Assembly: GCF_030811555.1 (NCBI RefSeq)
Contig: NZ_JAUSQZ010000001.1
Coordinates: 5,391,241 to 5,455,240 of the forward strand
Direction of reading: 5' to 3'
DNA from: Kineosporia succinea
Lineage (GTDB): Bacteria > Actinomycetota > Actinomycetes > Actinomycetales > Kineosporiaceae
DNA: 64,000 nt
Part shown: positions 45,722-61,395 of the stretch, one piece after another
Layout: every line of letters starts with the position of its first letter
Numbering within the stretch: position 1 is the stretch's first letter
The notes under the pieces: model-generated
What the model saw: only the letters and a program-made list of their open reading frames with translations
What the model was told of the DNA's origin: nothing
Database searches by the model: none
Translations under genes and position numbers: made by a program

Positions 45722-45805
45722 GTGATCTCGACGTCGGCCCTGCGCGCGGTGCGCCCCGCTGTCGTCTTCGGTGACCACTCCTTCCGGCAGGACTTCTACC
45801 AGTAG
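45722..45805 (+). CDS. 27-residue leaderless small ORF upstream of SAHH-like gene
   Basis: A GTG-initiated frame of 27 codons ending FGDHSFRQDFYQ and TAG. It lies 56 bases before the SAHH-like gene and starts where a leaderless transcript from TAGTAT would begin. The peptide is basic in its first half and aromatic/polar in its second, with no Cys or signal peptide. It lacks runs of a regulatory amino acid, so a classical amino-acid attenuation leader is not obvious. One arm of a stem that could cover the SAHH-like ribosome site lies inside it. It may be a regulatory leader or a functional peptide; I know no family for it. Confidence 0.4.
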   Translation: MISTSALRAVRPAVVFGDHSFRQDFYQ

Positions 45806-45848
45806 CCGAGCGCTCGCTCGCTGTCTGTGTCGTGGTTTCTTCCTGCCG
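45785..45848 (+). promoter_or_regulatory. Possible RNA switch coupling the small ORF to the SAHH-like gene
   Basis: CGGCAGGA (45785-45792, inside the small ORF) is complementary to TCCTGCCG (45841-45848), which runs into the GAGAGG ribosome site of the downstream gene. If the stem forms, the ribosome site is partly hidden; a ribosome at the end of the small ORF would keep it open. Eight pairs only, so this is a hypothesis. Confidence 0.35.
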
Positions 45849-45860
45849 AGAGGTCCTTTC

Positions 45861-47057
45861 GTGTTACCTGATTCCGTGCTGTCCCGGTACGCCCATCCCG
45901 ATCTGCGCTGGGCGGCCGCGCACATGCCGCTGCTGCACGCCACCGTCGCCCGCGTCGCTCCTGCCCTGAGCGGGCTGCGCCTGGGCATGTGCCTGCACAT
46001 CGAGCCCAAGACCGCCGTACTCGCGGTGCTCCTGCAGGAGGCCGGTGTGCGGATCCGCCTGACCGGTTCGCCCGGCACCACCCGGCCCGACGTGGTCGAG
46101 GCGCTGCTCGCGCTGGGGGTCGAGGTCACGTCGGGCCCCGACGACGACGCCCCGCACGTCGGCGAGGTGCTCGACCTCGAGCCCGACCTGCTGCTCGACA
46201 ACGGCGCCGACCTGACGCTGGGGTTGCTGGAACGGGGGGTGCCGTCGCACTTCCGGGGTGGCACCGAGGAGACCACCACCGGAGGCCGGCTGCTCCGGGA
46301 GGCGACCACAGCTGGGGGCACCTCCCCGGGCCGAAGGTCCAGGACGACCGTCACCTTCCCGGTCGTGGTGATCAACGACAGCCGCCTCAAGCAGCTGGTC
46401 GAGAACCGTTTCGGCGTCGGCCAGTCGGTGGTGCAGGGCTTCCAGCAGGCGACGAACCGCATGATCCCCGGCGCCCGCGCGGTGGTGGTGGGCTACGGGC
46501 CGTGCGGACGCGGCGTGGCCGGGACCCTGCGATCGCTGGGAGCGCGGGTGTCGGTCGCCGAGACCGATCCCTACCGGCGTCTGGAAGCGGTTCTCGAGGG
46601 GCATGCGGTCGGCCCGCTCGGCGATCTGCTGCCGGGCGCCGATCTGGTGTTCCTGGCCACCGGGCATCCGGGGGTGCTGGGTGCGGACGAGGTGGACCGG
46701 CTCGCGGACGGAGCGGTGCTGGCCGGGGTGGGACACCGCGCCGACGAGGTGTCACTGCCGCTGCTGGGCGCGGTCTCGGCCCGGGGAGGCGGTCGTCAGA
46801 CGCTCCACCACCGGGAGTACGTGCGGCCGGACGGCCGTCGCACGGTCGTGCTGGCGGAGACCCGGATGATCAATCTCGTGGCCGGGGGCGGCAATCCGAT
46901 CGAGGCCATGGATCTCGGGCTGAGCCTGCAGGCCGCCTCGCTGGCCGCGGTCGCGACGGGTGGCCTGGACGCCGGCGTGCAACCGGTGCCCACCGCGCTC
47001 GACCGGCAGATCGCCGAGGACTTCACCGCACGCCTCACCCTGGGAGCTTCTTCGTGA
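45861..47057 (+). CDS. Divergent S-adenosylhomocysteine hydrolase-like protein
   Basis: A 398-residue protein of the SAHH family, shorter than true SAHH (~430-490). Retained: His46 in CLHIEPKTAVL, Asp113 in LLLDNGADLTLG, the TEETTTGG loop near 136, Lys177 and Asn182 in INDSRLKQLVENRFG, the NAD motif VVGYGPCGRGV near 210 and a His in GVGHRADEV. Changed: the purine-contact segment (HMTxET in SAHH) reads HIEPKT, the STQDHAAAA strand is missing, and the C-terminal Lys/Tyr tail that reaches the partner's NAD is absent. It should bind NAD and use similar redox/elimination chemistry, probably on a different nucleoside thioether. GTG start with GAGAGG upstream. Overlaps the deaminase gene by four bases. 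Confidence 0.8.
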   Translation: MLPDSVLSRYAHPDLRWAAAHMPLLHATVARVAPALSGLRLGMCLHIEPKTAVLAVLLQEAGVRIRLTGSPGTTRPDVVEALLALGVEVTSGPDDDAPHVGEVLDLEPDLLLDNGADLTLGLLERGVPSHFRGGTEETTTGGRLLREATTAGGTSPGRRSRTTVTFPVVVINDSRLKQLVENRFGVGQSVVQGFQQATNRMIPGARAVVVGYGPCGRGVAGTLRSLGARVSVAETDPYRRLEAVLEGHAVGPLGDLLPGADLVFLATGHPGVLGADEVDRLADGAVLAGVGHRADEVSLPLLGAVSARGGGRQTLHHREYVRPDGRRTVVLAETRMINLVAGGGNPIEAMDLGLSLQAASLAAVATGGLDAGVQPVPTALDRQIAEDFTARLTLGASS

Positions 47058-47986
47058 TCGACCTGCACCGTCACCTCGAGGGTTCGCTGCGCGTCTCGAC
47101 GATCCTCGAACTGGCCGAACGGGACGGCCATCCGCTGGCCTCGGCGGCCTCTCCGCACGACGAGCTCGTGGCCTCCGGTCCGCTCGGCGGGCTGGTGCCG
47201 TTCCTCGGCAAGGTCGACGCCGCCCCGTCGGCCTTCCCCCGGCTCGACGACTGGAACCGGGCCGCGGCAGAGGTGGTGTCGGACGCCGCCGCCGACGGAT
47301 TGACGTATCTCGAACTACGGTTCAGCCCGTGGTTCATCCAGCAGGAGACCGGCCTGGTCCCCGAGGCGGTGATCGACGCGATCGCCGACGGCGTCGCGTC
47401 GGAGTCGGCTCGCACCGGTCTGCCGGTCGGGCTGATCGGCATTCTGCTGCGGGATCTCGGCCCGTCGCAGGGCCTGGCCCAGGTGCAGACGCTGCTGTCG
47501 CGGCGCGAGGTGTTCTGCGCGGTCGACCTGGCCGGCAACGAGGCCGGCGTGCCCGCACCCGATTTCGCGCCGGCGTTCGCCCGGGCCCGCGATGCCGGGC
47601 TCCATGTGACGGTGCACGCGGGTGAGGGGGCCGGGCCGCAGAGCGTGTGGGACGCGGTACGGCACCTGGGCGCCGAGCGCATCGGGCACGGGGTGCGGTC
47701 TTTCGAAGACCCTTCGCTGATGGAACATCTGGCGGAGCGTGGCATCACGCTGGAGGTGGCGCTGACGAGCAATCTGCACACGTCGGTGGTGGCGGACTAC
47801 GCCTCCCACCCGATCCGGGAACTGCTGGCGGCCGGGGTGCCGGTGGCGCTGGCCACGGATGATCCCCGGGCCTCGGCGATCACGCTCTCCGGGGAGTACA
47901 CGGTCGCGCGTGACGAGGTGGGCCTGAGCGATGCGCAGCTGGCCTCGGTGCGCGCGGCGGCGGAGAAGGCGCGCTTTCTGCCCTGA
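47054..47986 (+). CDS. Adenosine deaminase family protein
   Basis: A 310-residue metal-dependent deaminase. Zinc ligands and catalytic residues are visible: His-x-His in IDLHRHLEGS at the start, His and Glu in VTVHAGEGAG (~180), ERIGHGVRS (~207) and Asp-Asp in ALATDDPRAS (~265). The family removes the 6-amino group of adenosine, 5'-deoxyadenosine, S-adenosylhomocysteine, aminofutalosine and related purines. The GTG start overlaps the SAHH-like stop, so the two proteins should act in sequence: either adenosine released by the hydrolase is deaminated, or a deaminated nucleoside is the hydrolase substrate. Confidence 0.88.
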   Translation: MIDLHRHLEGSLRVSTILELAERDGHPLASAASPHDELVASGPLGGLVPFLGKVDAAPSAFPRLDDWNRAAAEVVSDAAADGLTYLELRFSPWFIQQETGLVPEAVIDAIADGVASESARTGLPVGLIGILLRDLGPSQGLAQVQTLLSRREVFCAVDLAGNEAGVPAPDFAPAFARARDAGLHVTVHAGEGAGPQSVWDAVRHLGAERIGHGVRSFEDPSLMEHLAERGITLEVALTSNLHTSVVADYASHPIRELLAAGVPVALATDDPRASAITLSGEYTVARDEVGLSDAQLASVRAAAEKARFLP

Positions 47987-48155: not shown

Positions 48156-49742
48156 TCAGGCCTCGGCGACCCGCCGGTGCAGGACCTCGAGCAGGTCCTC
48201 GCCGTGCGGGGAGCCGAGGCCGGTGTTGGGGTCCCAGCCCGGACGGGCGGTGTAGGTGCCGTTGTCGCCGGCCACCACGTCACGGAAGCCGGTGGTGACG
48301 ACCTCGGCCTGCAGGTCCCGGTAGATCAGGGGCTGGAGCAGGCCGAGGGGACGCTCCAGCGACTGCGTGACCCGGCAGATCAGGGCCGCCCACAGCGGGG
48401 TGGCGGCGCTGGTGCCGCCGACGCAGATCTCGGTTCCGCCCAGCCGGACCCGGTAGCCGGTGCGGTTGTCGGCGTTGGCCGCCACGTCGGGGACGCCCCG
48501 ACCCGGTTCGCCGGAGTCGGACCGCACCGGCACGTCCACCGTCGCCTGCCACTCGGGCAGCCCGAAGACCCCGCTGACGCCGCCCCCGGTGGCGCTGAAA
48601 GCGCCGGTGTTCCAGGCTGTCTCGGCGTGGATCACATTGGTGGCCGGATCGGCGAGCAGGGTGGTGCCACCGCAGGCGAGTACGTACGGGTCGGAGGCGG
48701 GGTAGTTCACGTGCGGTGCGCCGTCGGGCATGCCGCTGGTGCTGCCGGAGTCGCCGCTCGCCGCGCAGACGGTGATGCCCAGGGCCGCAGCGTCTTCCAG
48801 CAGGTCGTGCACGGCCAGGGCGAGCTGACCCGACCAGGTGATCTCGGGTGAGCCCCAGCTCAGGCTGATGACGGTCGGGCTGGGTGTCGCGTGCACGGCG
48901 GCCTTGAGCGCGAGCAGGATGCCCTGGCCGTTGTTGCGGGTGACGTAGTTGAGGATCGTGGCGCCGGGGGCGAGGGCGCCGGCGATCTGCAGGTCGAGGG
49001 TGACCTCGAGGTCGAAACGGGTGGCCGGACCGCTCTGCGGGGTGACGGGGGCGCCGTCGACGCTGACGTGGGTGATGTCGGGCGTGGCCAGGCCGAGGCT
49101 CCGGAAGTAGCCGTCGAGGTCGTCCGGCCGGCACATGCCGCCGAGCGAGACGACGGCCAGGCGCTGCCCGGTGCCGTCGTGGGAGGCCGGGAACCGGTAC
49201 AGGCGGCCGAGTTCCACGGCGGAGTAGGTGATGCGGGGCTCGTCGTCGGGCACGTGGAACTCGGGCCGGGCCACGGGCTGCGTGCCCAGGCCCACCACCG
49301 ACATCACGATGCCGTCGAGCTCGGCCGGCAGCAGGACCTCGCCGAGGTGGCGGCGGTAGCGCACCGGCCCGGGCCGGAACGGATCCTCCCCCTCGTAAAG
49401 CCGGATGCGGGAACCGAAGACCTCGGCCAGGGCGCTGAGCGGCCCCTCGACGGTGAGCAGCCGTGACTCGTGGTCGACCTGCACCGTGCGCAGCCCGTGG
49501 CGCCCGAGTGTGCCCTCGACCAGGGCGATGTCGGCCGGGTCGGCGCCGAAGCGCTCGGCGAGCTCCCGGTTCGAGATCACGGCCGGGGTCTGCACGAGCT
49601 GGTGCGGCAGAGGTGCCCGGCGGCGCAGCAGCAGGCTCACCCGGGCGGTGGAGCCGGGAACGGGGGACGCGTCGAGCGGACGTTCGGGCAGCCAGGGCCG
49701 GCTGGTGTGCGCGGACAGCACGACATGGTCGTCATCGGTCAT
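48156..49742 (-). CDS. S53 family serine-carboxyl peptidase (sedolisin/kumamolisin)
   Basis: A 528-residue S53 protease with its propeptide. The pro-domain (~1-160) contains FGADPADIALVEGTL and RTVQVDHESRLLTVEG. The catalytic domain has Glu246 and Asp250 in RFDLEVTLDLQ, the oxyanion Asp331 in AASGDSGST and Ser445 in GGTSAATPLWAA; the C-terminal Ca2+ site is in FRDVVAGDNGTY and WDPNTGLGSP. These enzymes are acid-active endopeptidases, usually exported, but no signal peptide is seen. Start: ATG at 49742 with GGGGG upstream; an ATG four codons earlier is possible but has GAGG touching it. Probably monocistronic. Confidence 0.9.
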   Translation of the reverse strand: MTDDDHVVLSAHTSRPWLPERPLDASPVPGSTARVSLLLRRRAPLPHQLVQTPAVISNRELAERFGADPADIALVEGTLGRHGLRTVQVDHESRLLTVEGPLSALAEVFGSRIRLYEGEDPFRPGPVRYRRHLGEVLLPAELDGIVMSVVGLGTQPVARPEFHVPDDEPRITYSAVELGRLYRFPASHDGTGQRLAVVSLGGMCRPDDLDGYFRSLGLATPDITHVSVDGAPVTPQSGPATRFDLEVTLDLQIAGALAPGATILNYVTRNNGQGILLALKAAVHATPSPTVISLSWGSPEITWSGQLALAVHDLLEDAAALGITVCAASGDSGSTSGMPDGAPHVNYPASDPYVLACGGTTLLADPATNVIHAETAWNTGAFSATGGGVSGVFGLPEWQATVDVPVRSDSGEPGRGVPDVAANADNRTGYRVRLGGTEICVGGTSAATPLWAALICRVTQSLERPLGLLQPLIYRDLQAEVVTTGFRDVVAGDNGTYTARPGWDPNTGLGSPHGEDLLEVLHRRVAEA

Positions 49743-49796
49743 CGTGGCCCCCATCCTCGGTGGCCACCACGCTAGCCGGATCGCCCGGACTTATCA

Positions 49797-50849: not shown

Positions 50850-51307
50850 TGCCCGGGTGGGAGTGGCTGGCACTGGCGGCTTACGGCGCGGCCGTCGCGC
50901 TGGTGGTGGTGCTGTTCCGGACGCGTCGGCAGCACGCCGCTCACCGTCGGCGGCTGATCCGGATCGGGAAGCCGCTTCGCCACCGGGAACGCCGGGTCGC
51001 CCTGCGGGCCGGGCTCGACGCCGAGGTCGATCGCGAGCGGCTCACCGAACTGCAGATCTACGCCGAGGGTTTCCGTCTCCAGCGATCTGAGGCCTACCTG
51101 GTCATGAGTGTCTACCTCGGTGCTTCGGGGGGCCTGGTCCTGGACCCCGGCGTGTGGCGGGGGATCCTCGTCGGGCTCGGAGCCGTCACATGTGCTTGGC
51201 TTCTGCTGCGCGCCGAGCGTGACGTCCGTCTGGGACGAGCCTTTCTCCAGCGTCACCCGGGCAGTGACGTCAGTCGTCGCCCACCGGAGCCTCCCCGAGC
51301 ACCGTGA
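50849..51307 (+). CDS. Small membrane protein, third of a trio
   Basis: A 152-residue protein with an N-terminal helix (WLALAAYGAAVALVVVLF), a basic middle and two C-terminal helices, closing with RDVRLGRAFLQRHPG, the same terminal motif as the two genes before it. ATG overlaps the previous stop by one base. Its last 38 bases overlap the end of the converging exchanger gene. Confidence 0.62.
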   Translation: MPGWEWLALAAYGAAVALVVVLFRTRRQHAAHRRRLIRIGKPLRHRERRVALRAGLDAEVDRERLTELQIYAEGFRLQRSEAYLVMSVYLGASGGLVLDPGVWRGILVGLGAVTCAWLLLRAERDVRLGRAFLQRHPGSDVSRRPPEPPRAP

Positions 51308-52289
51308 GGCACACCACCCAATAGGCCACGTACAGCGCGAGCAGCAGCACGCCGTGCCAGCGCCGCAGGCGTCCGGTGCTGATGAAATACGCGCCCAAGC
51401 CGGTCATCACGACCAGCGCAGGCAGGTGCCAGGCGAGGACGTCGTCGTCGACCGTGACCTCGTGCCCGGTCAGCAGGATGATCCCGAGCTTGGCCGTCAC
51501 TCCGAAGACCACGCTGCCGATGACGTTGCCGATGCCGATCTCGGACGCGCCACGGCGGTGGGGCTCCACCGTCAGCATGATGTCCTCCAGGGCCAGCACC
51601 AGGGTGGCGATCGTCGCGCCGAAGACCGTTCCCGGGATGGAGTAGTCGTCCAGGATGCCCTCGATGCCGGAGCTGGTCAGGGCGGCCGCCGCGATCAGGC
51701 CGACCAGCGCCAGCAGGGCCATGCCGAGCCCGGCCCAGGGCAGGGGCTTCGAGAAGGGCACGTCCACCTCGAACGGTGGCACATCGGTGGCTGACGAGGC
51801 GCCGGAGCCGGAACCCACCTTCTCCAGCACCTCCGCGTTCCGGAAGACCGGCGTCTGGCTGCGCAGTTCGTTGCGGGCCACGTAGGCGATGAACGCGACG
51901 AACAGCAGCATGAGAACCGCGCCGTCCGTGGCGGTCAGGGGCGGCGTGAGCACGAAGGGCAGCATCGCCAGCGGCGACAGGGCGAAGAGCACGATGTAGC
52001 GACGCGGGATGTCCACCCGGGTCGGGGCGATCAGCGCGGCCAGGGCGAGCACGATCCCGGTCATCGAGATGGCCGTGCCGAAGACCGTTCCCAGGGCCAC
52101 GCCGCCGAGATCCTCGACGTTCAGCACCACCCCGAGCGCCACGTCGTCGAACTCGATCCCGGTGAAGACGATCGCCAGCAGGAACACCGAGATCCGCAGT
52201 GCCCCGGCCGCTCCCACCAGGTAGGCGATGAGCTTCTCGGCCGTGTAGACGAGCAGCGCCGCCCCCAGGACGAAGATCAGGATCGACAC
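51270..52289 (-). CDS. Na+/Ca2+ exchanger (CaCA superfamily)-like membrane protein
   Basis: A 339-residue protein with about ten helices and the two inverted alpha-repeats of CaCA cation antiporters: FTGIEFDDVALGVVLNVEDL (~45-65) and FGATIATLVLALEDIMLTVE (~225-245), each with acidic residues in the ion-binding positions. A cytoplasmic loop of ~40 residues separates the halves. It starts nine bases after pqqE and is the last gene of the pqq operon. Calcium or another polyvalent cation is needed by PQQ dehydrogenases, so transport of the cofactor metal is a plausible role; this is inference. Confidence 0.82.
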   Translation of the reverse strand: MSILIFVLGAALLVYTAEKLIAYLVGAAGALRISVFLLAIVFTGIEFDDVALGVVLNVEDLGGVALGTVFGTAISMTGIVLALAALIAPTRVDIPRRYIVLFALSPLAMLPFVLTPPLTATDGAVLMLLFVAFIAYVARNELRSQTPVFRNAEVLEKVGSGSGASSATDVPPFEVDVPFSKPLPWAGLGMALLALVGLIAAAALTSSGIEGILDDYSIPGTVFGATIATLVLALEDIMLTVEPHRRGASEIGIGNVIGSVVFGVTAKLGIILLTGHEVTVDDDVLAWHLPALVVMTGLGAYFISTGRLRRWHGVLLLALYVAYWVVCLTVLGEAPVGDD

Positions 52290-52298
52290 GGGAACCCC

Positions 52299-53390
52299 TC
52301 AGGCTCGGTGCGGACGGGGGATGAGCTGCAGATCGGTGACCGTCCGGGCCGCGTCGACCGCGTCGGTCACGAGCGAGTGGTCGGGCGACAGGTGACAGAC
52401 CGGGTCGGTGCGCGACGCGTCGCCGGTCAGCTGGAACGCCTGGCAGCGGCAGCCGCCGAAGTCGATCTCACGCCGGTCGCAGTCGCGGCACGGCGAGGGC
52501 ATCCAGTCGGTGCCCCGGTACGCGTTCATCACCGGGGAGTCGTGCCAGATCGCCGCCAGGGACTGCTCCCGCACACTGGCGCGCGGCAACGGCAACGACT
52601 GTGCGGCCGGGCAGGGCAGCACATCACCGTTCGGGGCCACCGTCAGCTGCCGCGAGGCCCAGCCCCCCATGCAGGGTTTGGGGTAGCGGCTGTAGTAGTC
52701 GGGGATCACGTAGAGGACGTCCATCCGCCCCGCCAGCCTCGTGCGGGCCTCGCGGACGGTCACCTCGGCGGCCTCGAGCTGCTCCCGGCCGGGCAGCAGT
52801 GCGTCGCGGTTCCGCCAGGCCCAGCCGTAGTACTGGGTGTTCGCCAGTTCGACCCGGTCGGCGCCGGCCTCCTCGGCCATCCGGATCACCGAGGCGATGC
52901 GGTCGATGTTCTGACGGTGCAGCACCACGTTCACCGTCAGCGGCCACCCGAGCGACTTCACCAGGGCCATGGCCCGCAGCTTCCGCTCGAACGACGGTGT
53001 GCCCGCGATCCGGTCGGACAGTGCGGGATCGTCGGCCTGGATGCTGACCTGCACGTGGTCGAGCCCGGCCTCGCGCAGCTCCGCGGCCCGGGAGGGGGAC
53101 AACCCGACCGCGCTCGTCACCAGGTTCGTGTAAAGACCCACCCCGGAACAGAAGGCGACCAGCTCGGCGAGATCCCGCCGGAGCAGGGGCTCCCCACCGG
53201 ACAGGTGCGCCTGCAGCACCCCCATCTCGGCGGCCTGCCCCATCACGGCCTTCCACTCCTGGAGCCCCAGCTCGTCGGTGTACCCGGACATGTTGAGCGG
53301 GTTCGAACAGTACGAGCAGGCGAGCGGGCACCGGTAGGTGAGCTCCGCGAGAAGCCCGTACGGCGCGTCCACCATCGGCTGTTCACTCAT
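52299..53390 (-). CDS. pqqE: PQQ biosynthesis radical SAM protein PqqE
   Basis: A 363-residue radical SAM/SPASM protein. The [4Fe-4S]-SAM cluster motif is CPLACSYCSN (~21-28); LSGGEPLLRRDL follows near 57. The SPASM domain near 235-320 holds CMGGW, CPAAQS, CRDCDRREIDFGGCRCQAF and a later Cys. PqqE makes the carbon-carbon bond between the Glu and Tyr side chains of PqqA. The start MSEQPMVDAPYG overlaps the pqqD stop by eight bases; a more upstream ATG is possible. Confidence 0.96.
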   Translation of the reverse strand: MSEQPMVDAPYGLLAELTYRCPLACSYCSNPLNMSGYTDELGLQEWKAVMGQAAEMGVLQAHLSGGEPLLRRDLAELVAFCSGVGLYTNLVTSAVGLSPSRAAELREAGLDHVQVSIQADDPALSDRIAGTPSFERKLRAMALVKSLGWPLTVNVVLHRQNIDRIASVIRMAEEAGADRVELANTQYYGWAWRNRDALLPGREQLEAAEVTVREARTRLAGRMDVLYVIPDYYSRYPKPCMGGWASRQLTVAPNGDVLPCPAAQSLPLPRASVREQSLAAIWHDSPVMNAYRGTDWMPSPCRDCDRREIDFGGCRCQAFQLTGDASRTDPVCHLSPDHSLVTDAVDAARTVTDLQLIPRPHRA

Positions 53391-53667
53391 CGGCCAGCTC
53401 CACACATCGACGCTTCACGAGACCACCCAGGAACCCGAGAACCTCGTCGGCGGGCACACTCCGGTACACCGCCCCGAGCTCGGAGACGATGTCGCGCACC
53501 GTGTGCTCGCCGTCGCACCGCGAAAGAATCTCCGCGCCGGTGGTGTTCAGCACCACCACGGTCTCCGGCAGCAGCAGCACCGGGCGCTGCCGGGCCTGCG
53601 AGTAGCTCAGCCGCACGTGCCGGGCCAGTCGCGGTCGTCCGGGTGGCCCTACCGGGAAGGGGCTCAT
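53383..53667 (-). CDS. pqqD: PQQ biosynthesis peptide chaperone PqqD
   Basis: A 94-residue RRE-domain protein that binds PqqA and presents it to PqqE. The conserved LARHVRLSYSQARQRPVLLL, VLNTTGAEILSRCDGEHTV and LVKRRCVEL segments are present. ATG overlaps the pqqC stop by four bases (ATGA) and the 3' end overlaps pqqE, so C, D and E are translationally coupled. Confidence 0.94.
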   Translation of the reverse strand: MSPFPVGPPGRPRLARHVRLSYSQARQRPVLLLPETVVVLNTTGAEILSRCDGEHTVRDIVSELGAVYRSVPADEVLGFLGGLVKRRCVELADE

Positions 53668-54350
53668 GAAGGGTAGGCCTGCCCGATCGCGTCCATCAGG
53701 CTCCACAGCACGTCGCACTTGAACGACAGCGCCCCGATCGCCGCGCCCTGCGACTCCTCGGTCAGGCAGTGCGTGGTCACGATCTCCAGCGCGTGTTCAC
53801 TGTCGCGCGGGGCCTGCTCGAGCCGGGCGCGGAAGTAGGCCAGACCCTCGGGATCGATCCACTGGTAGTACTTCTCGAACGCCGCCAGGCGTTCGGCCAT
53901 CAGGTCGGGCGCGAACAGCTCGGTCAGCGACGAGGCCACTGCCTCCGTCCACGGCCGGTTGCGTGCGAAGTTCACGTACGCGTCCACCGAGAAACGCGCC
54001 CCGGGCACCAGGTGCCGGTGGTCGAGGATCTCCTCGCGTTCCAGGCCCGCCGCCTCGCCGAGGCGCAGCCAGGCCTCGATGCCCCCGTCGCCGGGAGCCG
54101 CACCGTCGTGATCGGTGATCCGCCGGATCCAGCGCCGCCGCACCTCCACGTCCGGGCAGTTGGCCAGGATCGCCGCGTCCTTGCGGGGAATGTTCTCCTG
54201 GTAGTAGAAGCGGTTCGCGATCCAGCCCCGCAGCTGCCCGGGCGTGCACAGGCCGGCGTTCATCCGCACGTGGAAGGGATGTGCGTCGTGGTACTGCCGC
54301 GAGTGGGCCCGGAGGGACTCGACGAAAGCGGTTGTCTCCAGCGCTGTCAC
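53664..54350 (-). CDS. pqqC: Pyrroloquinoline-quinone synthase PqqC
   Basis: A 228-residue all-helical oxidase of the PqqC/TenA-like fold that catalyses the final ring closure and eight-electron oxidation to PQQ without metal or cofactor. Characteristic stretches: YHDAHPFHVRMNAG near 20, WIANRFYYQENIPRKDAAIL near 43, HRHLVPGARFSVDAYVNF near 108 and the His/Glu segment THCLTEESQ near 205. GTG start overlapping pqqB by four bases. Confidence 0.95.
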   Translation of the reverse strand: MTALETTAFVESLRAHSRQYHDAHPFHVRMNAGLCTPGQLRGWIANRFYYQENIPRKDAAILANCPDVEVRRRWIRRITDHDGAAPGDGGIEAWLRLGEAAGLEREEILDHRHLVPGARFSVDAYVNFARNRPWTEAVASSLTELFAPDLMAERLAAFEKYYQWIDPEGLAYFRARLEQAPRDSEHALEIVTTHCLTEESQGAAIGALSFKCDVLWSLMDAIGQAYPS

Positions 54351-55234
54351 TGCTCCACCACCTGGATCTCGAGACCGTCCATGGCCACCTCCATACCGTT
54401 CTCCTCCACGATGAGCCATTCGGGGGAGTCGTCGAGCAGGATCGGGTTCGTGTTGTTCATGTGCACGAAGACCGTGCGTCGCACGCCCAGACCGTCGAGC
54501 GCGGCGAGACTTTCGAGCACCGGAAGGTGCCCCATCTCCCGGGAGGTCTTGCCGGCCAGGCCCAGGTCGATGAGTTCGTCGTCGTGCCAGCAGGTTCCGT
54601 CGAGCAGGAGCAGGTCACTGCCGGAGATCTCCGACCGCACGGCCGGGCCGAGGCGCTGCGCCCCGGGCAGGTAGACCACGGTGGCGCCGTCGTTCTCGTC
54701 GGTGAAGCGGTATCCGACCACCCGCCCGGGGATCGTGCCGGTGCCGAACCGGTCGGCCTTGGTCGTGGGCACGTCGAAGGCCTCGCACCACAGCCCGTCG
54801 GCGAGCCGGAACCCGGCCCCCGGCTCCACGGGCGTCCACTCGACCGGGCAGAACCGCTCCAGCAGGGGCAGCAGACCGGACCCGTCGGTGAGCGTCTTGT
54901 GCACCGCCGGCGTCGCGAACAGCCGCACCCCCGAGGCCTCGCGCAGCAGCAGCAGTCCCAGGGTGTGGTCGATCTCGGCATCGGTGAGCAGGCAGGCGCG
55001 CAACGGTGAGTCCCGGCTCCCGCGGGGGTGGAGGCCGGGGAAGGCTTCGATCTGATGGCGGACGTCGGGGCTGGCGTTGACGAGGAACCACCGGTCGCGG
55101 TCGGGGCTGACCACGATGGACGACTGGGAGCGTGGGGTGCCGGAGCCTCGCCGCACGCGGTGGCAGACGGGGCAGCCGCAGTTCCACTGCGGTGAACCGC
55201 CACCCGCCGCCGAGCCGAGCACCCGCACCCACAT
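54347..55234 (-). CDS. pqqB: PQQ biosynthesis protein PqqB (metallo-beta-lactamase fold)
   Basis: A 295-residue PqqB. Opens VRVLGSAAGGGSPQWNCGCP, the family signature, and contains LLTDAEIDHTLGLLLLREAS near 90, LLLDGTCWHDDELIDLGL near 210 and MGHLPVLESLA near 232 with metal-site residues. PqqB hydroxylates the cross-linked Tyr in the PQQ pathway. It follows pqqA after a gap with two stem-loops and overlaps pqqC. Confidence 0.95.
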   Translation of the reverse strand: MWVRVLGSAAGGGSPQWNCGCPVCHRVRRGSGTPRSQSSIVVSPDRDRWFLVNASPDVRHQIEAFPGLHPRGSRDSPLRACLLTDAEIDHTLGLLLLREASGVRLFATPAVHKTLTDGSGLLPLLERFCPVEWTPVEPGAGFRLADGLWCEAFDVPTTKADRFGTGTIPGRVVGYRFTDENDGATVVYLPGAQRLGPAVRSEISGSDLLLLDGTCWHDDELIDLGLAGKTSREMGHLPVLESLAALDGLGVRRTVFVHMNNTNPILLDDSPEWLIVEENGMEVAMDGLEIQVVEQ

Positions 55235-55293: not shown

Positions 55294-55386
55294 CTAGTCG
55301 TCGAGCCGGGCGATGTACATGGTCACCTCGGGAGCGACGGCGATCTCGTCGAACACGGGTGTTTCCCAATCGGTCTGGGCCTCCAT
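55294..55386 (-). CDS. pqqA: PQQ precursor peptide PqqA
   Basis: A 30-residue peptide with the invariant EVTMYIARLDD core: Glu20 and Tyr24, three residues apart, are the atoms donors of PQQ. The N-terminal part (MEAQTDWETPVFDEI) is the acidic leader recognised by PqqD. GGAGAGGAGG lies upstream of the ATG at ideal spacing. It lies 23 bases after the PQQ dehydrogenase gene and 59 bases before pqqB. Confidence 0.95.
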   Translation of the reverse strand: MEAQTDWETPVFDEIAVAPEVTMYIARLDD

Positions 55387-55409: not shown

Positions 55410-57131
55410 TCAATGGTCACCACGCGACGGCGTCTGCTCGGGCAGCGCGAACACGATCAGCGCGCTCCCGTGACCGGCGCCGAGCATGCCGGGCAGGAAC
55501 CCCTCGGCCCAGCCACCCCAGCCGACCGGCACCGCGATGTACTGGCGGCCGTCGATCGCGTAGGTCACCGGGCTGCTGTGATGCCCGCTGCCGCACTGGA
55601 ACTGCCAGAGCAGGTCACCGGTGCGGGCGTCGTAGGCGTTGAACTCGCCCGAGGGCTCACCGGCGAACACCAGGTCCCCGGCGGTCGCGAGCACGGACGC
55701 GCACATCGGCAGTTCGTTGCGCCAGCGCCACTTCTCGTTCCCGTCGGCGTCGAAGGCGCTGAGGTAGCCCACGGCCTCCTCGATGTCGACGGCCACGCCC
55801 GCGCTCCAGTACGGGATGCCCTCCCTGAACTCCCGGCGGCGCCGGGCGGCGGTGGCTCCCACGTCCTGGATCGGCACGTAGAACCAGCCGGTCTTCGGGC
55901 TGTAGGCGGCGTGCGTCCACTCCTTCGCCCCGGCCGGGCCGGGGTAGAAGTGCACCTCCACGCCTTCTTCCTCGGGGTAGATCTTCGGCACGACCTGACC
56001 GTCGCGGCTGATCGCCCCCCAGGTGATCCGGTCGACGAACGGCGTGATCGAGACGCGTTCACCGTTCGTGCGGTCGAGCACGAACATGTAGCCGTTCTTG
56101 TCGAAGTGGGCCAGCAGCTTGCGGCCGTCCCGCTCGAACAGGATGCACTCGCTCATGCTGTCGTAGTCCCACACGTCGTGCGGGGTGCACTGGTAGTGCC
56201 AGCGGATCTGCCCGGAGTCGACGTCGATCGCGACGATGCTGTCGGTGTAGAGGTTGTCGCCCTCGCGCACCCCGCCGTCGAAGTCGGGGGCCGGGTTGCC
56301 GGTGCCCCAGTAGAGCAGGTTGGTCTCCGGGTCGAAAGTGCCCGTCAGCCAGCAGTTGCCGCCGCCCCGGGCCCAGGCCTCACCGTCGGCCGGCCAGCTC
56401 TCCGAGCCGGGCTCACCGGGCTTGGGCACCATGTACGAGCGCCACTGGTGCTCGCCGGTCTCCACATCGAACGCGTCGAGGTGGCCGCGCACCCCGAACT
56501 CGCCGCCGGAGCTGCCCACGATCACCAGGTTCTTCACCACGATCGGGGCCAGGGTCCCGCTTTCCCCGGCGCGCACGTCTCCGTAGGTCTTGTCCCACAC
56601 CCGCTTGCCGGTGCCCGCGTCCAGCGCGATCACATGGGCGTTGGCCGTGACGAAGAAGACCTTGCCCGAGGCCACGGCCACGCCCCGGTTGACGTTGCCG
56701 CAGCAGAGCGACACGTCGAACGGCACGGCGTGCTTGTACCGCCAGATCTCCTTGCCGGTCCTCCCGTCGAGGGCCCACACCCAGCCGTCCCACCCGGACA
56801 GGAACATGACGCCGTCGACCACGATCGGGGTGGCCTCGAACGAGTACGTGGACGTGCCCGCGATGATGCCGCTGACCCCGGCCTGGAAGATCCACGCCGG
56901 GCCGATCCGGCTGACGTTCTCGGTGTTGATCTGGTCGAGCGTGCTGTAGCGCTGCCCGTCGTAGGTGCCGTAGTAGGTGAGCCAGTTCTCCGGCTCGCTG
57001 CGCGCGTCGAGAATGCGCTCGTAGGTGAGGTTCTCCGTGACCGGAGGGGCGATCTCCCCGCCGGCGACCTTGCCGGACAGCCGGCCCTGGTCGACGGCCT
57101 CGCCGGCGTCGACGTAGTCGGACGTGGTCAT
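55410..57131 (-). CDS. PQQ-dependent alcohol/methanol dehydrogenase, lanthanide-type active site
   Basis: A 573-residue eight-bladed quinoprotein dehydrogenase. Landmarks: the vicinal disulfide Cys143-Cys144 (SLCCGNVNRG), metal ligands Glu211 (SSGGEFGVRG) and Asn279 (GTGNPAPD), catalytic Asp322 and a second Asp324 in PHDVWDYDSMSE. The additional Asp, which is Ala in Ca2+ MxaF enzymes, marks lanthanide-dependent XoxF/ExaF types. It oxidises primary alcohols. Unusually, there is no signal peptide and no cytochrome c domain, whereas known relatives are periplasmic. The ATG is 13 bases after the cupredoxin-like gene; pqqA follows, so enzyme and cofactor genes form one operon. Confidence 0.93.
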   Translation of the reverse strand: MTTSDYVDAGEAVDQGRLSGKVAGGEIAPPVTENLTYERILDARSEPENWLTYYGTYDGQRYSTLDQINTENVSRIGPAWIFQAGVSGIIAGTSTYSFEATPIVVDGVMFLSGWDGWVWALDGRTGKEIWRYKHAVPFDVSLCCGNVNRGVAVASGKVFFVTANAHVIALDAGTGKRVWDKTYGDVRAGESGTLAPIVVKNLVIVGSSGGEFGVRGHLDAFDVETGEHQWRSYMVPKPGEPGSESWPADGEAWARGGGNCWLTGTFDPETNLLYWGTGNPAPDFDGGVREGDNLYTDSIVAIDVDSGQIRWHYQCTPHDVWDYDSMSECILFERDGRKLLAHFDKNGYMFVLDRTNGERVSITPFVDRITWGAISRDGQVVPKIYPEEEGVEVHFYPGPAGAKEWTHAAYSPKTGWFYVPIQDVGATAARRRREFREGIPYWSAGVAVDIEEAVGYLSAFDADGNEKWRWRNELPMCASVLATAGDLVFAGEPSGEFNAYDARTGDLLWQFQCGSGHHSSPVTYAIDGRQYIAVPVGWGGWAEGFLPGMLGAGHGSALIVFALPEQTPSRGDH

Positions 57132-57144
57132 GTCGTCTCCTGCC

Positions 57145-57609
57145 TCAGAACGGACGCGGCTGGTCGGGACGGTCGAGCCGGGCCTCCGGGGGCACGTCAC
57201 CGAGCACGACGATGACGGCCGTCAGGCCGCGCCCCTCGTCGTTTCCCGAGGGCGAGCTGTACCAGTAGTACCCCGGGCCGTCGAGGTTCAGGCTCGCCCG
57301 GCCCTTGGAGTGGTTGACCAGCCAGATGAACTTCTTGTCACCGTTACTGGGCAGCAGCGCGCAGTGCGTGTTCTGGTCGTCGTTGATCAGCTCGAGATCC
57401 AGGTCGCCGCCGTGCGGGAGCACCAGAATGGACGGGTCCCAGCAGATCTCGTCGGGGTTGATGCGGACGGTGGCCTTCATCCGCCCGTCCGCGCCCTCGC
57501 TGGCCTGGGCGATGTTGCCGGTGTTGAGCAGCTTTCCGAGCGCGGCCTTGTTCTGGGCGTCCAGTCCGAGATTCTCCAGCAGCGCGTCTCGATCGTTCAG
57601 GGTCGTCAT
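57145..57609 (-). CDS. Cupredoxin-like PQQ-associated protein (MSMEG_3727-like)
   Basis: A 154-residue protein. Residues ~45-137 form a cupredoxin-like beta-sandwich: SILVLPHGGDLDLELINDDQ followed by NTHCALL with His82, then GPGYYWYSSPSG where plastocyanin-type proteins have the Cu loop. The Cys and His ligands of that loop are Ser118 and Ser121 here, so a type 1 copper site is unlikely. It resembles actinobacterial proteins named as the MSMEG_3727 family that accompany PQQ dehydrogenases; I am moderately sure of that name. It is the first gene of the PQQ operon. No signal peptide is seen. It may be a structural partner or a metal or electron-transfer accessory. Confidence 0.78.
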   Translation of the reverse strand: MTTLNDRDALLENLGLDAQNKAALGKLLNTGNIAQASEGADGRMKATVRINPDEICWDPSILVLPHGGDLDLELINDDQNTHCALLPSNGDKKFIWLVNHSKGRASLNLDGPGYYWYSSPSGNDEGRGLTAVIVVLGDVPPEARLDRPDQPRPF

Positions 57610-57756: not shown

Positions 57757-59904
57757 TCAGCGCCCGAGCTCCATCACCTTGTGCCAGGCGGCCACGAAGT
57801 CCCGCACGAAGAGCTCGAGCGCGTCGTCGGCGGCGTACTGCTCGGCGACGGCCCGCAGTTCGGCGTGGGCCCCGAACACCAGGTCGGCGCGGCTGGCACC
57901 CCAGCGGGCCTCGCCCCGTACACGGCCCTCAAAAGTGCCGTCGGGCCGAGGAAACCATTCGGTCTCGTGGTCGAGCAGATTCACGAAGAAGTCGTTGCTC
58001 AGCACACCCGGCCGGTCGGTGAGCACACCGAGCGACGAATGCCCCGCCACCGCGCCCAGTGATCTCAGACCGCCGAGCAGCACGGTCGTCTCGGCGACAT
58101 CGAGCGTCAGCAGTGCCGCGCGGTCGATCAGCAGATGTTCCGAGGGCCGGCGCGCCTGTCGCCCGCGATAGTTGCGGAATCCGTCGGCGACCGGTTCCAG
58201 CCAGCCGAAGGATTCCTCGTCGGTCCACTCCGGCAGCGCGTCCGTACGGCCCGCCCGGAACGGCACCGCGACCTCCACCCCGGCCGCCGCCGCGGCCCGC
58301 TCGAGGGCCGCGCAGCCCGCGAGCACGATCAGGTCGGCCGTGGAAATCACGTCCCCACCGACCGACTCGCGGATCCCCGCCAGGGTGACCAGCACGTCCG
58401 CAAGCCGTTCGGGATCGTTGACCTCCCACCCCCGCTGCGGGGCGAGCCCCACCCGCCCACCGTTCGCCCCGCCCCGCCGGTCGCTGCTGCGGAACGTGGA
58501 CGCCGAGGCCCAGGCCGCGAGCACGAGATCGGCCCCGGACCGGTCGGAGGCGAGAACCCGTTGCTTGATCCCCGCCACCAGGTCGGGGGCGGGATCACCG
58601 GCGGCGGGCGCCGGAACCGGATCCTGCCAGAGCAGTGTCTCGGCCGGGACCAGCGACCCCAGATACCGTGACCGCGGCCCCAGATCGAGGTGCGTCAGCT
58701 TGAACCAGGCCCGTGCGAACGCGTCCGCCAGCTCCGGCGGGTGCTCGAGGAACCGGCGCGCGATCGGCTCGTAGACCGGGTCGAAACGCAGGGCCAGATC
58801 GGTGGTCAGGAAGGTCGGTGCGTGAAAGAGGTTCGGGTCGTGGGCGTCCGGCACCGTGCCCGCGCCACCACCGGCCCGGGGCGTCCACTGCCACAGCCCG
58901 GCCGGGCTGAGCGCCACGTCCCACTCGAAGCCGAACAGGTTCTCCAGAAAGCTGTTGTCCCAGGTTGTCGGGGTTTTCGTCCACGTCCCCTCGAGTCCGC
59001 TGGTGATGGTGTCCCCACCCTTACCCGCGCCGTGGGTGCTGCGCCAGCCCAGTCCCTGGTGTTCGAGACGAGCGGCCGCCGGTTCCGGGCCGAGGTGCTT
59101 CTCCGGGTCGGCGGCGCCGTGCGTCTTGCCGAACGAGTGCCCACCGGCGATCAGCGCGACGGTCTCGGTGTCGTTCATCCCCATGCGCGCGAACGACTGG
59201 CGGATGTCGCGCGCCGACATCACCGGGTCGGGCACCGTGTTCGGCCCCTCCGGATTCACGTAGATGAGCCCCATCTGATCTGCGGCCAGCGGTTTCTCGA
59301 GATCCCGCACCCCCTCGTGCCGCTCGTCGCCGAGCCATGACCGCTCCGGTCCCCAGTACACGTCGTCCGGTTCGAGCACCTCCTCACGCCCGCCGGCGTA
59401 GCCGAACGTCTCGAAGCCCATCGACTCGAGCGCGCGGTTGCCCGCGAAGACCATCAGGTCCGGCCACGAGATCCGGCGCCCGTACTTCTTCTTGACCGGC
59501 CACAGCAGGCGGCGCGGCTTGTCCAGGTTGCGGTTGTCGGGCCAGCTGTCCACCGGCGCGAACCGTTGCAGACCCGCGCTGGCGCCCCCGCGTCCGTCCG
59601 CCCTTCTGTAGGTGCCCGCGCAGTGCCAGACCATGCGCAGCACCAGCGGCCCGTAGTGGCCGAAATCGGCGGGCCACCATTCCTGCGAGCTGGTGAGCAC
59701 GGCGTCGACGTCGGCGGCCAGTTCGTCGAGATCCACGGTCGCGAAGGCCGCCGGGTAGTCGAACGGGGGACGCGCCGGTCGCCTCAGCGCCCGCAGGTCC
59801 AGGTGGTCGGGCCACCAGTCGGTCGCGCTGGTGGACGCTTTCGGCCGCCGGTCGGGCGTGCTGGGTGGCAGGCCCAGTCCGCCACCGTTGGGATGCTGGG
59901 GCAC
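57757..59904 (-). CDS. katG: Catalase-peroxidase KatG
   Basis: A 715-residue bifunctional haem catalase-peroxidase. Distal triad Arg90, Trp93, His94 in [14 protein letters not shown] (the usual Ser after His is Cys); the Tyr of the Met-Tyr-Trp adduct in [10 protein letters not shown] and the Met in ARMGMNDTE; proximal haem His in [10 protein letters not shown]. The second, haem-free half-domain is present to the end, so the gene is complete. It removes H2O2, which the amine oxidase and flavin enzymes in this region generate. GTG start with AGGAG upstream; 22 bases after the regulator gene. Confidence 0.96.
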
Positions 59905-59925: not shown

Positions 59926-61290
59926 TCAGAAGTCCAGGGCCCGCCGCACCGCCGGGGCGTTGCGGCGTGAGACCGGCACCATGGCCTCGTCCTGCTGGTC
60001 CATCACGAGAGTCAGCTCACCGCCCCGGCCCCGCTCGACCTCGCGGATCCGGCTGAGGTTGACCACGTAGCGGCGGTGCACGCGCAGGAACCCGGCGCCG
60101 GCCAGCTCCCCGCCGAGCTTGTCCAGACTCGCGGAGGCGGCCCGGAGGCGTCCCTGATCGGTCGAGAGCCAGACCTCGTTGCCGTCCGACTCGGCGAACC
60201 GGACCTCGGGCAGCCGCAGCAGCACCATGCGGTTCTCGCGCTGGGCGACCACCCGGCGGGGCCCGGGCAGGGACGGGGTCTCGTCGGGCGCGCTGATCTG
60301 CGTCTCGTGGGTGGCGTTGAACGTGACGAGCGTGCCGATGAGGTGACGCGACTGGAACACCGGGCGCAGCACGATCGGCACCGGGTCGCCGGTCAGATGG
60401 GTGAAGACCTGGGTGGAGCCGATCCAGTCCGGGTTCCGGGCCGCCTGGGTGCAGGCGTAGCGCGCGGCGTTGCCGAGCTCCGGCAGACCCGGCGTCCAGC
60501 GGACCGTCGGGTCGAGTGCGGGGGTGGCGGCCGGTACGCCGAGCAGCACGCTCGCCGTCTCGTCGGCGATCACCACCTTGCCCGCGGTGTCCATGGCGGC
60601 CAGCGGCTGAGCCGATCCGGCGCGGGCCTGGGTGTACGCCGCCAGCAGCTCGGCCCCGCTGTCGCGGGCGCGGCGCCGCAGCTGTCCCTGCGTGGTGGCG
60701 GCCGCGTTGGTCAGCCAGCCCCCGGCGAACGACGGCAGGCGGCTGCGCCAGCAGGAGATGTTGAGAACAGCGATGGGCTCCCGGGTGACCACGTCCCGCA
60801 CCGCGACGCCCGCGCAGGTCCAGTCGTGAAAGGCCCGGCACCAGTGCTCCGGCCCCTTGACCAGCACCGGCCCGTGCGTCTCGAGGGCCATCCCCATGCC
60901 GTTGGTGCCCGCCGCCGGCTCCGACCAGCAGAACCACGGCGCCAGGTTGGCCTCGGCGGCCCGGGCCAGCGTGGCCGGATCACCCCACTCGGCCAGGATG
61001 CGCCCGGTGGAGTCCGTGACGGTGACGACGCCCCCGGCGAAGCTGACGTCCTGGGCGACCGTCGCGGCGCGGAACCCCAGCTCGGCGAAGACCCCGTCGT
61101 GCTCGGGCCGGTGCTCGATCTCGGCGACCGCGATCGGGGCCTCGGTGAGGTGGGGGTCGACCCGGTACTGCTCACGGCAGCGGTGCCAGGAGATGGCCAC
61201 CTCGGGACGGACGCCGAGCACCCGGTCGTCGCCCTGCACGAACCGTTCCCACGCCGAGTAGACGGACTCCTGGTGGTGCGCAACATCCAT
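59926..61290 (-). CDS. GAF-domain activator with C-terminal LytTR DNA-binding domain
   Basis: A 454-residue regulator. Residues ~1-55 and the GAF domain (~60-215) resemble AcoR-type activators, including EPAAGTNGMGMALETHGPV near 135 and FHDWTCAGVAVRDVVTREP near 168. Instead of a sigma-54 AAA+ domain and Fis HTH, the C-terminus (~355-454) is a LytTR domain: VRFAESDGNEVWLSTDQGRL and FLRVHRRYVVNLSRIREVER. AcoR relatives sense acetoin or alcohols, so control of the PQQ dehydrogenase operon or katG is a reasonable guess. Start ATG at MDVAHHQESV; an upstream in-frame extension is less likely. katG follows by 22 bases. Confidence 0.85.
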   Translation of the reverse strand: MDVAHHQESVYSAWERFVQGDDRVLGVRPEVAISWHRCREQYRVDPHLTEAPIAVAEIEHRPEHDGVFAELGFRAATVAQDVSFAGGVVTVTDSTGRILAEWGDPATLARAAEANLAPWFCWSEPAAGTNGMGMALETHGPVLVKGPEHWCRAFHDWTCAGVAVRDVVTREPIAVLNISCWRSRLPSFAGGWLTNAAATTQGQLRRRARDSGAELLAAYTQARAGSAQPLAAMDTAGKVVIADETASVLLGVPAATPALDPTVRWTPGLPELGNAARYACTQAARNPDWIGSTQVFTHLTGDPVPIVLRPVFQSRHLIGTLVTFNATHETQISAPDETPSLPGPRRVVAQRENRMVLLRLPEVRFAESDGNEVWLSTDQGRLRAASASLDKLGGELAGAGFLRVHRRYVVNLSRIREVERGRGGELTLVMDQQDEAMVPVSRRNAPAVRRALDF

Positions 61291-61395
61291 GGTGCTGAAC
61301 CGCCTTTGGTCCGTCACCTTGCCCGTATGCCGTATATGTAACGAATCGGCGTCAACCACTGTAGGTACGGTTCGCGGGCTGCGCCACCACCCGGC

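Follow-up and report, generated by a model that had tools for sequence, protein, structure and literature searches.

In our study, a stretch of 64,000 nucleotides from Kineosporia succinea (contig NZ_JAUSQZ010000001.1, positions 5,391,241 to 5,455,240; hereafter the window) was found to encode an alcohol dehydrogenase dependent on pyrroloquinoline quinone (PQQ). The enzyme, which occurs in soil actinomycetes, represents a new, apparently unexported branch of lanthanide-type PQQ dehydrogenases, encoded within an operon that also makes PQQ and that usually comes with a dedicated katG. It is predicted to be both intracellular and lanthanide-using, a combination to which we give a probability of about 0.5. 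Lanthanide-dependent PQQ dehydrogenases have so far been regarded as belonging to the periplasm of Gram-negative bacteria. Should this family prove to be intracellular and to use lanthanides, these metals must enter the cytosol and be handled there, and a PQQ enzyme must function without cytochrome c. The dehydrogenase and its partner were found in the window as follows:

55410..57131, minus strand: PQQ-dependent alcohol dehydrogenase of 573 residues, without a signal peptide (TIGR03075, PF01011)
57027..57131, minus strand: N-terminal stretch (about 35 residues) occupying the place of a signal peptide, hydrophilic and conserved
56148..56171, minus strand: active-site motif WDYDSMSE (residues 321-328) with Asp322 and Asp324, read from the sequence
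57145..57609, minus strand: MSMEG_3727-family PQQ-associated partner of 154 residues (TIGR04339, 279.1 bits; PF23509)

The dehydrogenase matched TIGR03075, the PQQ methanol/ethanol dehydrogenase family, over positions 3-530 of the 530 in the profile (616.6 bits; cut-off 480.05). Its closest solved relatives in phmmer were the quinoprotein ethanol dehydrogenase structures 6zcv/6zcw (E 1.9e-114), which we take to be PedH. Judged by their profile matches, both enzyme and partner belong to already catalogued families (TIGR03075 and TIGR04339). The family set comprised the window and the best 80 of 209 confirmed loci, picked by similarity to the dehydrogenase; the 80 proteins were 71-91% identical to that of the window, and two of the loci carried non-actinomycete titles (L071, a 'Bacillota' metagenome-assembled genome, and L077, Bacterium HR26). 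Glu211, Asn279, Asp322, Asp324, Cys143 and Cys144 were each identical in 81/81 family proteins, which is more than chance. The initial annotation had described the open reading frame, the WDYDSMSE motif and the numbering of these six residues, all of which were confirmed, and its statement that all other ligands (Glu211, Asn279 and Cys143-Cys144) are kept was borne out across the family. The AlphaFold2 model of the dehydrogenase was of moderate quality, with a mean predicted local distance difference test score (pLDDT) of 76.2 and low confidence for the N-terminal residues 1-20.

Asp324 occupies the position of the residue used as the lanthanide indicator in the accessible text of PMC11996626, according to which XoxF and type 2b enzymes require this aspartate to coordinate a lanthanide. 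The aspartate at the equivalent place in PedH is treated in the accessible part of PMC5487730. From Asp324 alone, lanthanide use is the somewhat favoured prediction for the dehydrogenase.

In a tree of 51 rows, 26/26 family rows were found on a branch of their own (support 100/100; 100% of 200 bootstrap trees), with a warning from the program about long branches (Natrinema, the Rhodococcus plasmid, Paraburkholderia and MxaF). PedH, ExaA and L083 formed one outside branch (100/100), XoxF, MxaF and their kin another, and the type II quinohaemoproteins a third. The placement among XoxF, ExaF and MxaF proposed earlier was thus obtained: the family is separate from both the XoxF/MxaF and the ExaF/PedH branches. 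PedH and ExaF resemble the family in fold, ligands and the Cys-Cys pair, with WDFD in PedH in place of the WDYD of the family. PedH differs in belonging to a periplasmic system, as described in the part of PMC5487730 that was available, whereas the family lacks a signal and lies outside the PedH/ExaA branch; membership in ExaF/PedH (type 2b) was rejected on this separation. XoxF likewise shares the TIGR03075-type fold, D-x-D, Glu, Asn and Cys-Cys. Membership in XoxF was rejected in view of the separate, fully supported branch of the family, which lacks a signal, and of the Kineosporia genome, in which neither XoxJ nor a cytochrome XoxG was matched and QcrC was the only c-type cytochrome detected. 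XoxF was not found in the Gram-positive metagenome-assembled genomes of one survey, which was deemed unsurprising for a periplasmic enzyme in the accessible text of PMC10875860.

Export signals were sought as the best 12-residue mean Kyte-Doolittle hydrophobicity in the first 45 residues, with a level of 1.8, for every possible in-frame start as far as 60 codons upstream, and twin-arginine motifs were sought in the first 30 residues. The dehydrogenase reached 1.8 in 0/81 loci, whichever in-frame start in this range was taken (largest value 1.47). The partner reached it in 0/81 at the nearest start and in 1/81 (L073) only at an alternative start, where a single hydrophobic stretch occurs. Twin-arginine motifs were absent from residues 1-30 of both proteins in the 81 loci. 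The same hydrophobicity measure flagged 12/14 outgroup enzymes, and a thirteenth (L090) contained a signal-like stretch 5' of its annotated start. In an independent phylum sample, the maxima of 10 enzymes and 11 partners were 1.04 and 0.96, respectively, below 1.8; WDYD was present in 9/10 of these enzymes, the tenth being cut by a contig end. The gap between partner and enzyme was at most 46 nt in 80/81 loci (161 nt in L073), which leaves little space for a signal further upstream. The N-terminus was hydrophilic and conserved where relatives carry a signal, with Y6, A9 and A28 invariant in 53/53 proteins. Two other accounts of the missing signal were rejected. An upstream start would add 30 residues to the enzyme and 49 to the partner in the window, neither signal-like, and strain-specific loss does not fit the absence of a signal in 80 further loci and in the independent sample. 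The earlier claim that neither protein carries an export signal therefore holds for the whole family, and the check on alternative starts that had been suggested gave the same answer for the enzyme. The annotated start of L090, a Bradyrhizobium plasmid PQQ dehydrogenase (upstream of 1498), seems too late.

The content of cysteine was also found to differ. The mean was 8.0 in the 81 family members and 3.8 (range 2-7) in 24 relatives, a count that excluded the Natrinema enzyme L095 (one cysteine) as well as residues 1-30 of 12 relatives with a signal, and took seven PDB rows as their aligned HMMER stretches only; the Mann-Whitney p of 1.8e-13 is not a fair probability, because the sequences are kin. 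The excess was located at six positions, all six occupied in 46/81 members and five of them in the window, and the cysteine total was odd in 27/81 family members. Unpaired cysteines would fit a cytosolic protein.

When the whole genome was searched with PF13442 and PF00034, c-type haem domains turned up at one place only, outside the window, and belonged to QcrC (NF050122, 372.4 bits). No XoxJ (TIGR03871) and no copper protein of PF00127 were matched in the genome. The usual electron acceptor is therefore lacking, and the initial observation that no cytochrome gene is near the dehydrogenase can be extended to the genome, QcrC excepted. The initial annotation had left the choice between an unusual export route and an intracellular enzyme; the latter is favoured, because neither protein shows a signal or a twin-arginine motif, there is no signalled partner for hitch-hiking, the cysteines are in excess, PQQ is supplied by the operon and QcrC is the only c-type haem protein detected. 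A cytosolic location of the dehydrogenase is accordingly held to be likely, on grounds drawn from sequence.

The genes around the pair, which the initial annotation overlooked, were as follows:

59926..61359, minus strand: regulator with a LytTR DNA-binding domain (PF04397, 58.7 bits)
57757..59904, minus strand: katG, catalase-peroxidase (TIGR00198, 952.3 bits)
55294..55386, minus strand: pqqA, PQQ precursor peptide of 30 residues with an EVTMY core (TIGR02107, 27.8 bits; cut-off 20)
54347..55234, minus strand: pqqB (TIGR02108, 351.6 bits)
53664..54419, minus strand: pqqC, open reading frame from the first ATG (TIGR02111, 321.7 bits, match from residue 29)
53383..53718, minus strand: pqqD, open reading frame (TIGR03859, 67.5 bits, match from residue 29)
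52299..53405, minus strand: pqqE, radical SAM enzyme (TIGR02109, 510.4 bits)
51270..52289, minus strand: membrane protein of the Na/Ca exchanger family (PF01699, 91 bits)

Each of pqqA to pqqE passed the cut-off of its own profile, and the pqq genes adjoin the pair of dehydrogenase and partner; the score of the partner against TIGR04339 exceeds a cut-off of 75. The true start of pqqC may lie later than the first ATG, overlapping the pqqB stop. The dehydrogenase starts 13 nt past the partner stop, and AGGAG is present just 5' of both start codons. From the spacing, we infer that the genes of this row are co-transcribed. The exchanger gene follows pqqE directly in the window and was present in 16/80 loci, in 13 of them downstream on the same strand; its product might manage Ca2+, or some other metal, on behalf of the dehydrogenase. 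The interpretation of the initial annotation was partly supported, holding for the lanthanide-type active site and the missing signal, and it had passed over pqqABCDE, katG, the exchanger and the catalogued families.

The MSMEG_3727-type partner was found beside the enzyme in 80/80 fetched loci, a set which, being picked by enzyme similarity, is therefore unable to show enzymes without a partner. Among 396 sampled genomes of the phylum, 11 contained TIGR04339 and nine contained TIGR03075 over the cut-off, the nine all within the 11. Some genomes of this sample count against the pairing: G259 contained a family-like enzyme fragment, 71% identical, without a partner match; G167 contained a family-like fragment with a TGA, again without a partner match; G290 contained a truncated partner at a contig edge and no enzyme match over the cut-off; and in G327 the enzyme was split over two contigs.

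The AlphaFold2 model of the partner (pLDDT 86.6; predicted template modelling score 0.82) retrieved cupredoxins first in Foldseek, with auracyanin 6kol at E 6.5e-6 and TM 0.51 and 229 matches at E of 0.001 or below. The Pfam family Cupredoxin_1 (PF13473) matched weakly in 23/53 partner members. The partner may resemble the cupredoxins (auracyanin, plastocyanin and CuA domains) in its predicted fold, and it differs from them in the copper ligands, of which only His82 is kept. In a by-eye alignment, the copper Cys corresponded to Ser119 and the Met to Leu129, and the second copper His was replaced by Gly122, Asn123 or Asp124, depending on the loop. His82, Ser119, Gly122, Asn123, Asp124 and Leu129 were invariant in 81/81 partners, and the last loop contained no conserved Cys or Met in these proteins. 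Provided that the predicted fold is correct, the sequence excludes a blue copper site, since the Cys, the Met and the second His ligands are replaced. The invariant Asp77, Asp78, His82 and Asp124 may, speculatively, serve another metal.

The katG gene, counted at 55% identity or more, was present in 54/80 loci, upstream on the same strand in 50 and elsewhere in four. Among the 50 upstream copies, 44 were located at most 700 bp away, and the regulator was found upstream in 42 of these 44. In 38 relatives, the five genomes with the partner each contained two katGs, one of them beside the operon; among the 33 without the partner, one contained two katGs, 14 contained one and 18 contained none. 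Within the genus, the five operon genomes contained two katGs each and a sixth contained neither operon nor katG. A katG tree of 45 rows united the 24 katGs linked to the operon on one branch (99/94). A wider, quicker tree of 96 rows, from which duplicates and operon copies already included were dropped and for which 30 of 46 katG matches had loci, placed 51/54 operon rows on one branch (Shimodaira-Hasegawa-like approximate likelihood ratio test 100), apart from most other katGs. The operon branch contained one non-operon katG, from the L073 genome, which itself has the operon. The Pseudonocardia rows L036, L039 and L040 were placed outside it, and katG was therefore recruited at least twice.

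Several observations weigh against an enzyme that is both intracellular and lanthanide-using, the first of which concern the metal. An Asp at the +2 position was present in 10/14 outgroup enzymes, including one from a haloarchaeon and one from Rhodococcus, and D-x-D also occurs in the Ca/Mg-type membrane glucose dehydrogenase (PMC11996626, accessible text). The initial annotation had called the second aspartate a marker of lanthanide enzymes; this stands in so far as Asp324 was found in 81/81 proteins. Lanthanide dependence is a prediction from this one residue, which the glucose dehydrogenases share; Asp324 is a lanthanide-type feature, yet not exclusive to lanthanide enzymes. An intracellular enzyme that works with Ca2+ or has no preference for a particular metal, with Asp324 as an ancestral residue, would account for this distribution and for the exchanger gene adjoining the operon in 16/80 loci. 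Free cytosolic Ca2+ is low, which disfavours a weak Ca2+ site. PedH is inactive without rare earths and the Ser-bearing PedE is a Ca enzyme in the available part of PMC5487730, and together with the reported need for the aspartate in lanthanide coordination this makes the Ca2+-using or metal-indifferent enzyme rather improbable.

The second group of observations concerns location. The signal test was a crude hydrophobicity measure, not one of SignalP grade. The Natrinema enzyme L095 is without a signal and its upstream, overlapping gene starts in a twin-arginine-like manner, so an absent signal is not proof of a cytosolic location. The extra cysteines might pair, and the related sequences are not independent. 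The vicinal Cys143-Cys144 pair, a disulfide in exported relatives that forms more readily outside the reducing cytosol, is kept in 81/81 proteins. The pair and the Natrinema analogue would suit an enzyme and partner that leave the cell without a classical signal, by hitch-hiking or a non-classical route, and all characterised relatives known to us are exported. Such export is nevertheless unlikely, given that the partner, adjacent in 80/80 loci, is itself unsignalled at its normal start, that no exported carrier is found among the other operon genes, that the cysteines are in excess, and that neither a diffusible cytochrome c nor a copper protein of PF00127 was found in the genome as a recipient of the electrons. 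The Natrinema case is also an observation in its own right: on plasmid CP031304 of Natrinema thermotolerans (L095, 518-3351), the haloarchaeal PQQ-type enzyme and its overlapping neighbour are a possible hitch-hiker pair. As for the partner, its assignment to the cupredoxin fold comes from a predicted model and weak Pfam matches, and a profile comparison with four plastocyanin-like domains gave no support (probability 0.2).

The last group concerns katG. Of the 26 loci without it, 18 (of 80) include 3 kb or more of upstream sequence with no katG in it, and eight include less; clustering of open reading frames in the katG-less loci chiefly returned the core genes along with shadow frames, and no clear substitute for katG emerged. 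No katG match was found in the genomes G445 (Geodermatophilus, L055) and G446 (Rubrobacter, L058), both with the operon, and katG as a strict requirement was rejected on this account. Two explanations of the link were considered. PqqC consumes O2 and releases H2O2, so katG may be linked to the operon since PQQ synthesis and the redox cycling of free PQQ give cytosolic H2O2, rather than through any reduction of O2 by the dehydrogenase itself. This explanation, which falls just short of even odds, is in line with the adjacency of katG in 44/80 loci and with a katG clade that follows the operon; against it, G445 and G446 have the operon and a nearby pqqC but no katG, and many proteobacterial pqq operons are not known to contain katG. 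In the other explanation, the dehydrogenase is in effect an alcohol oxidase, O2 re-oxidising PQQH2 in the cytosol and the operon KatG destroying the H2O2. The dedicated katG subfamily (a single clade for 51/54 operon rows, with separate recruitment in the three from Pseudonocardia) and the lack of a cytochrome acceptor would agree with it. It is doubtful all the same, as quinoprotein dehydrogenases react poorly with O2 and two operon genomes contain no katG at all.

The reading we prefer, with chances that we regard as evenly balanced, is that of a complete and self-contained operon for PQQ-dependent alcohol oxidation whose enzyme works in the cytosol. The pqqABCDE genes of the operon would make PQQ, and the dehydrogenase would fold in the cytosol together with this cofactor and with a metal ligated by Glu211, Asn279, Asp322 and Asp324, a lanthanide being the likeliest metal in view of Asp324. 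The partner, a putative cupredoxin fold without a copper site, would be a structural, docking or metal/PQQ-loading subunit; it is probably not an electron carrier, because the copper site has been lost. Alcohol would be oxidised inside the cell, and the electrons would pass to a cytosolic or inner-face acceptor, which is proposed because no cytochrome c is at hand. In most of these operons, a dedicated KatG would clear the peroxide to which PQQ chemistry gives rise. A bolder version, in which this is the first intracellular lanthanide enzyme, with Gram-positive uptake of lanthanides into the cytosol, their loading into the dehydrogenase along with locally made PQQ through a copper-less cupredoxin, electrons passing to O2 and a dedicated KatG against H2O2, is improbable; if true, it would be a bacterial counterpart of the peroxisomal pair of alcohol oxidase and catalase.

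Previous studies named MSMEG_3721-3727 of Mycobacterium smegmatis as a cluster for PQQ synthesis and alcohol dehydrogenase (PMC3023750, PMC6529628), and MSMEG_3726 was noted as the sole PQQ alcohol dehydrogenase of this species, in the accessible text of these reports. The cluster resembles the window in its MSMEG_3726 dehydrogenase and MSMEG_3727 partner, after which TIGR04339 is named; the comparison is by description only, and localisation, lanthanides, the partner fold and katG are not discussed in the accessible text. Mycofactocin was required for growth on ethanol, and the PQQ genes were no replacement under the published conditions (PMC6529628, accessible part). If the family uses lanthanides, the PQQ genes may have failed because the medium may have been free of lanthanide. 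In the literature within our reach, which excluded most subscription journals, no treatment was recognised of an intracellular lanthanide-type PQQ enzyme, of a copper-less cupredoxin partner or of the katG link.

The Kineosporia genome was found to contain a second PQQ-family protein (L002, 1057-3282, minus strand; genome G000:C1, about 6175100-6177400). It has a twin-arginine-like start, which counts in favour of the preferred reading of the unsignalled dehydrogenase, and a WDYD motif, scores below the TIGR03075 cut-off, and shows weak cupredoxin matches in its C-terminal stretch (E 0.0005 for the piece alone). Elsewhere in the window, a kumamolisin-type peptidase was recognised by Pfam at 48156-49754 on the minus strand (Peptidase_S8, Pro-kuma_activ), and a protein at 45771-47986 on the plus strand bears the NAD domain of S-adenosylhomocysteine hydrolase, an open reading frame with an adenosine deaminase domain coming after it.

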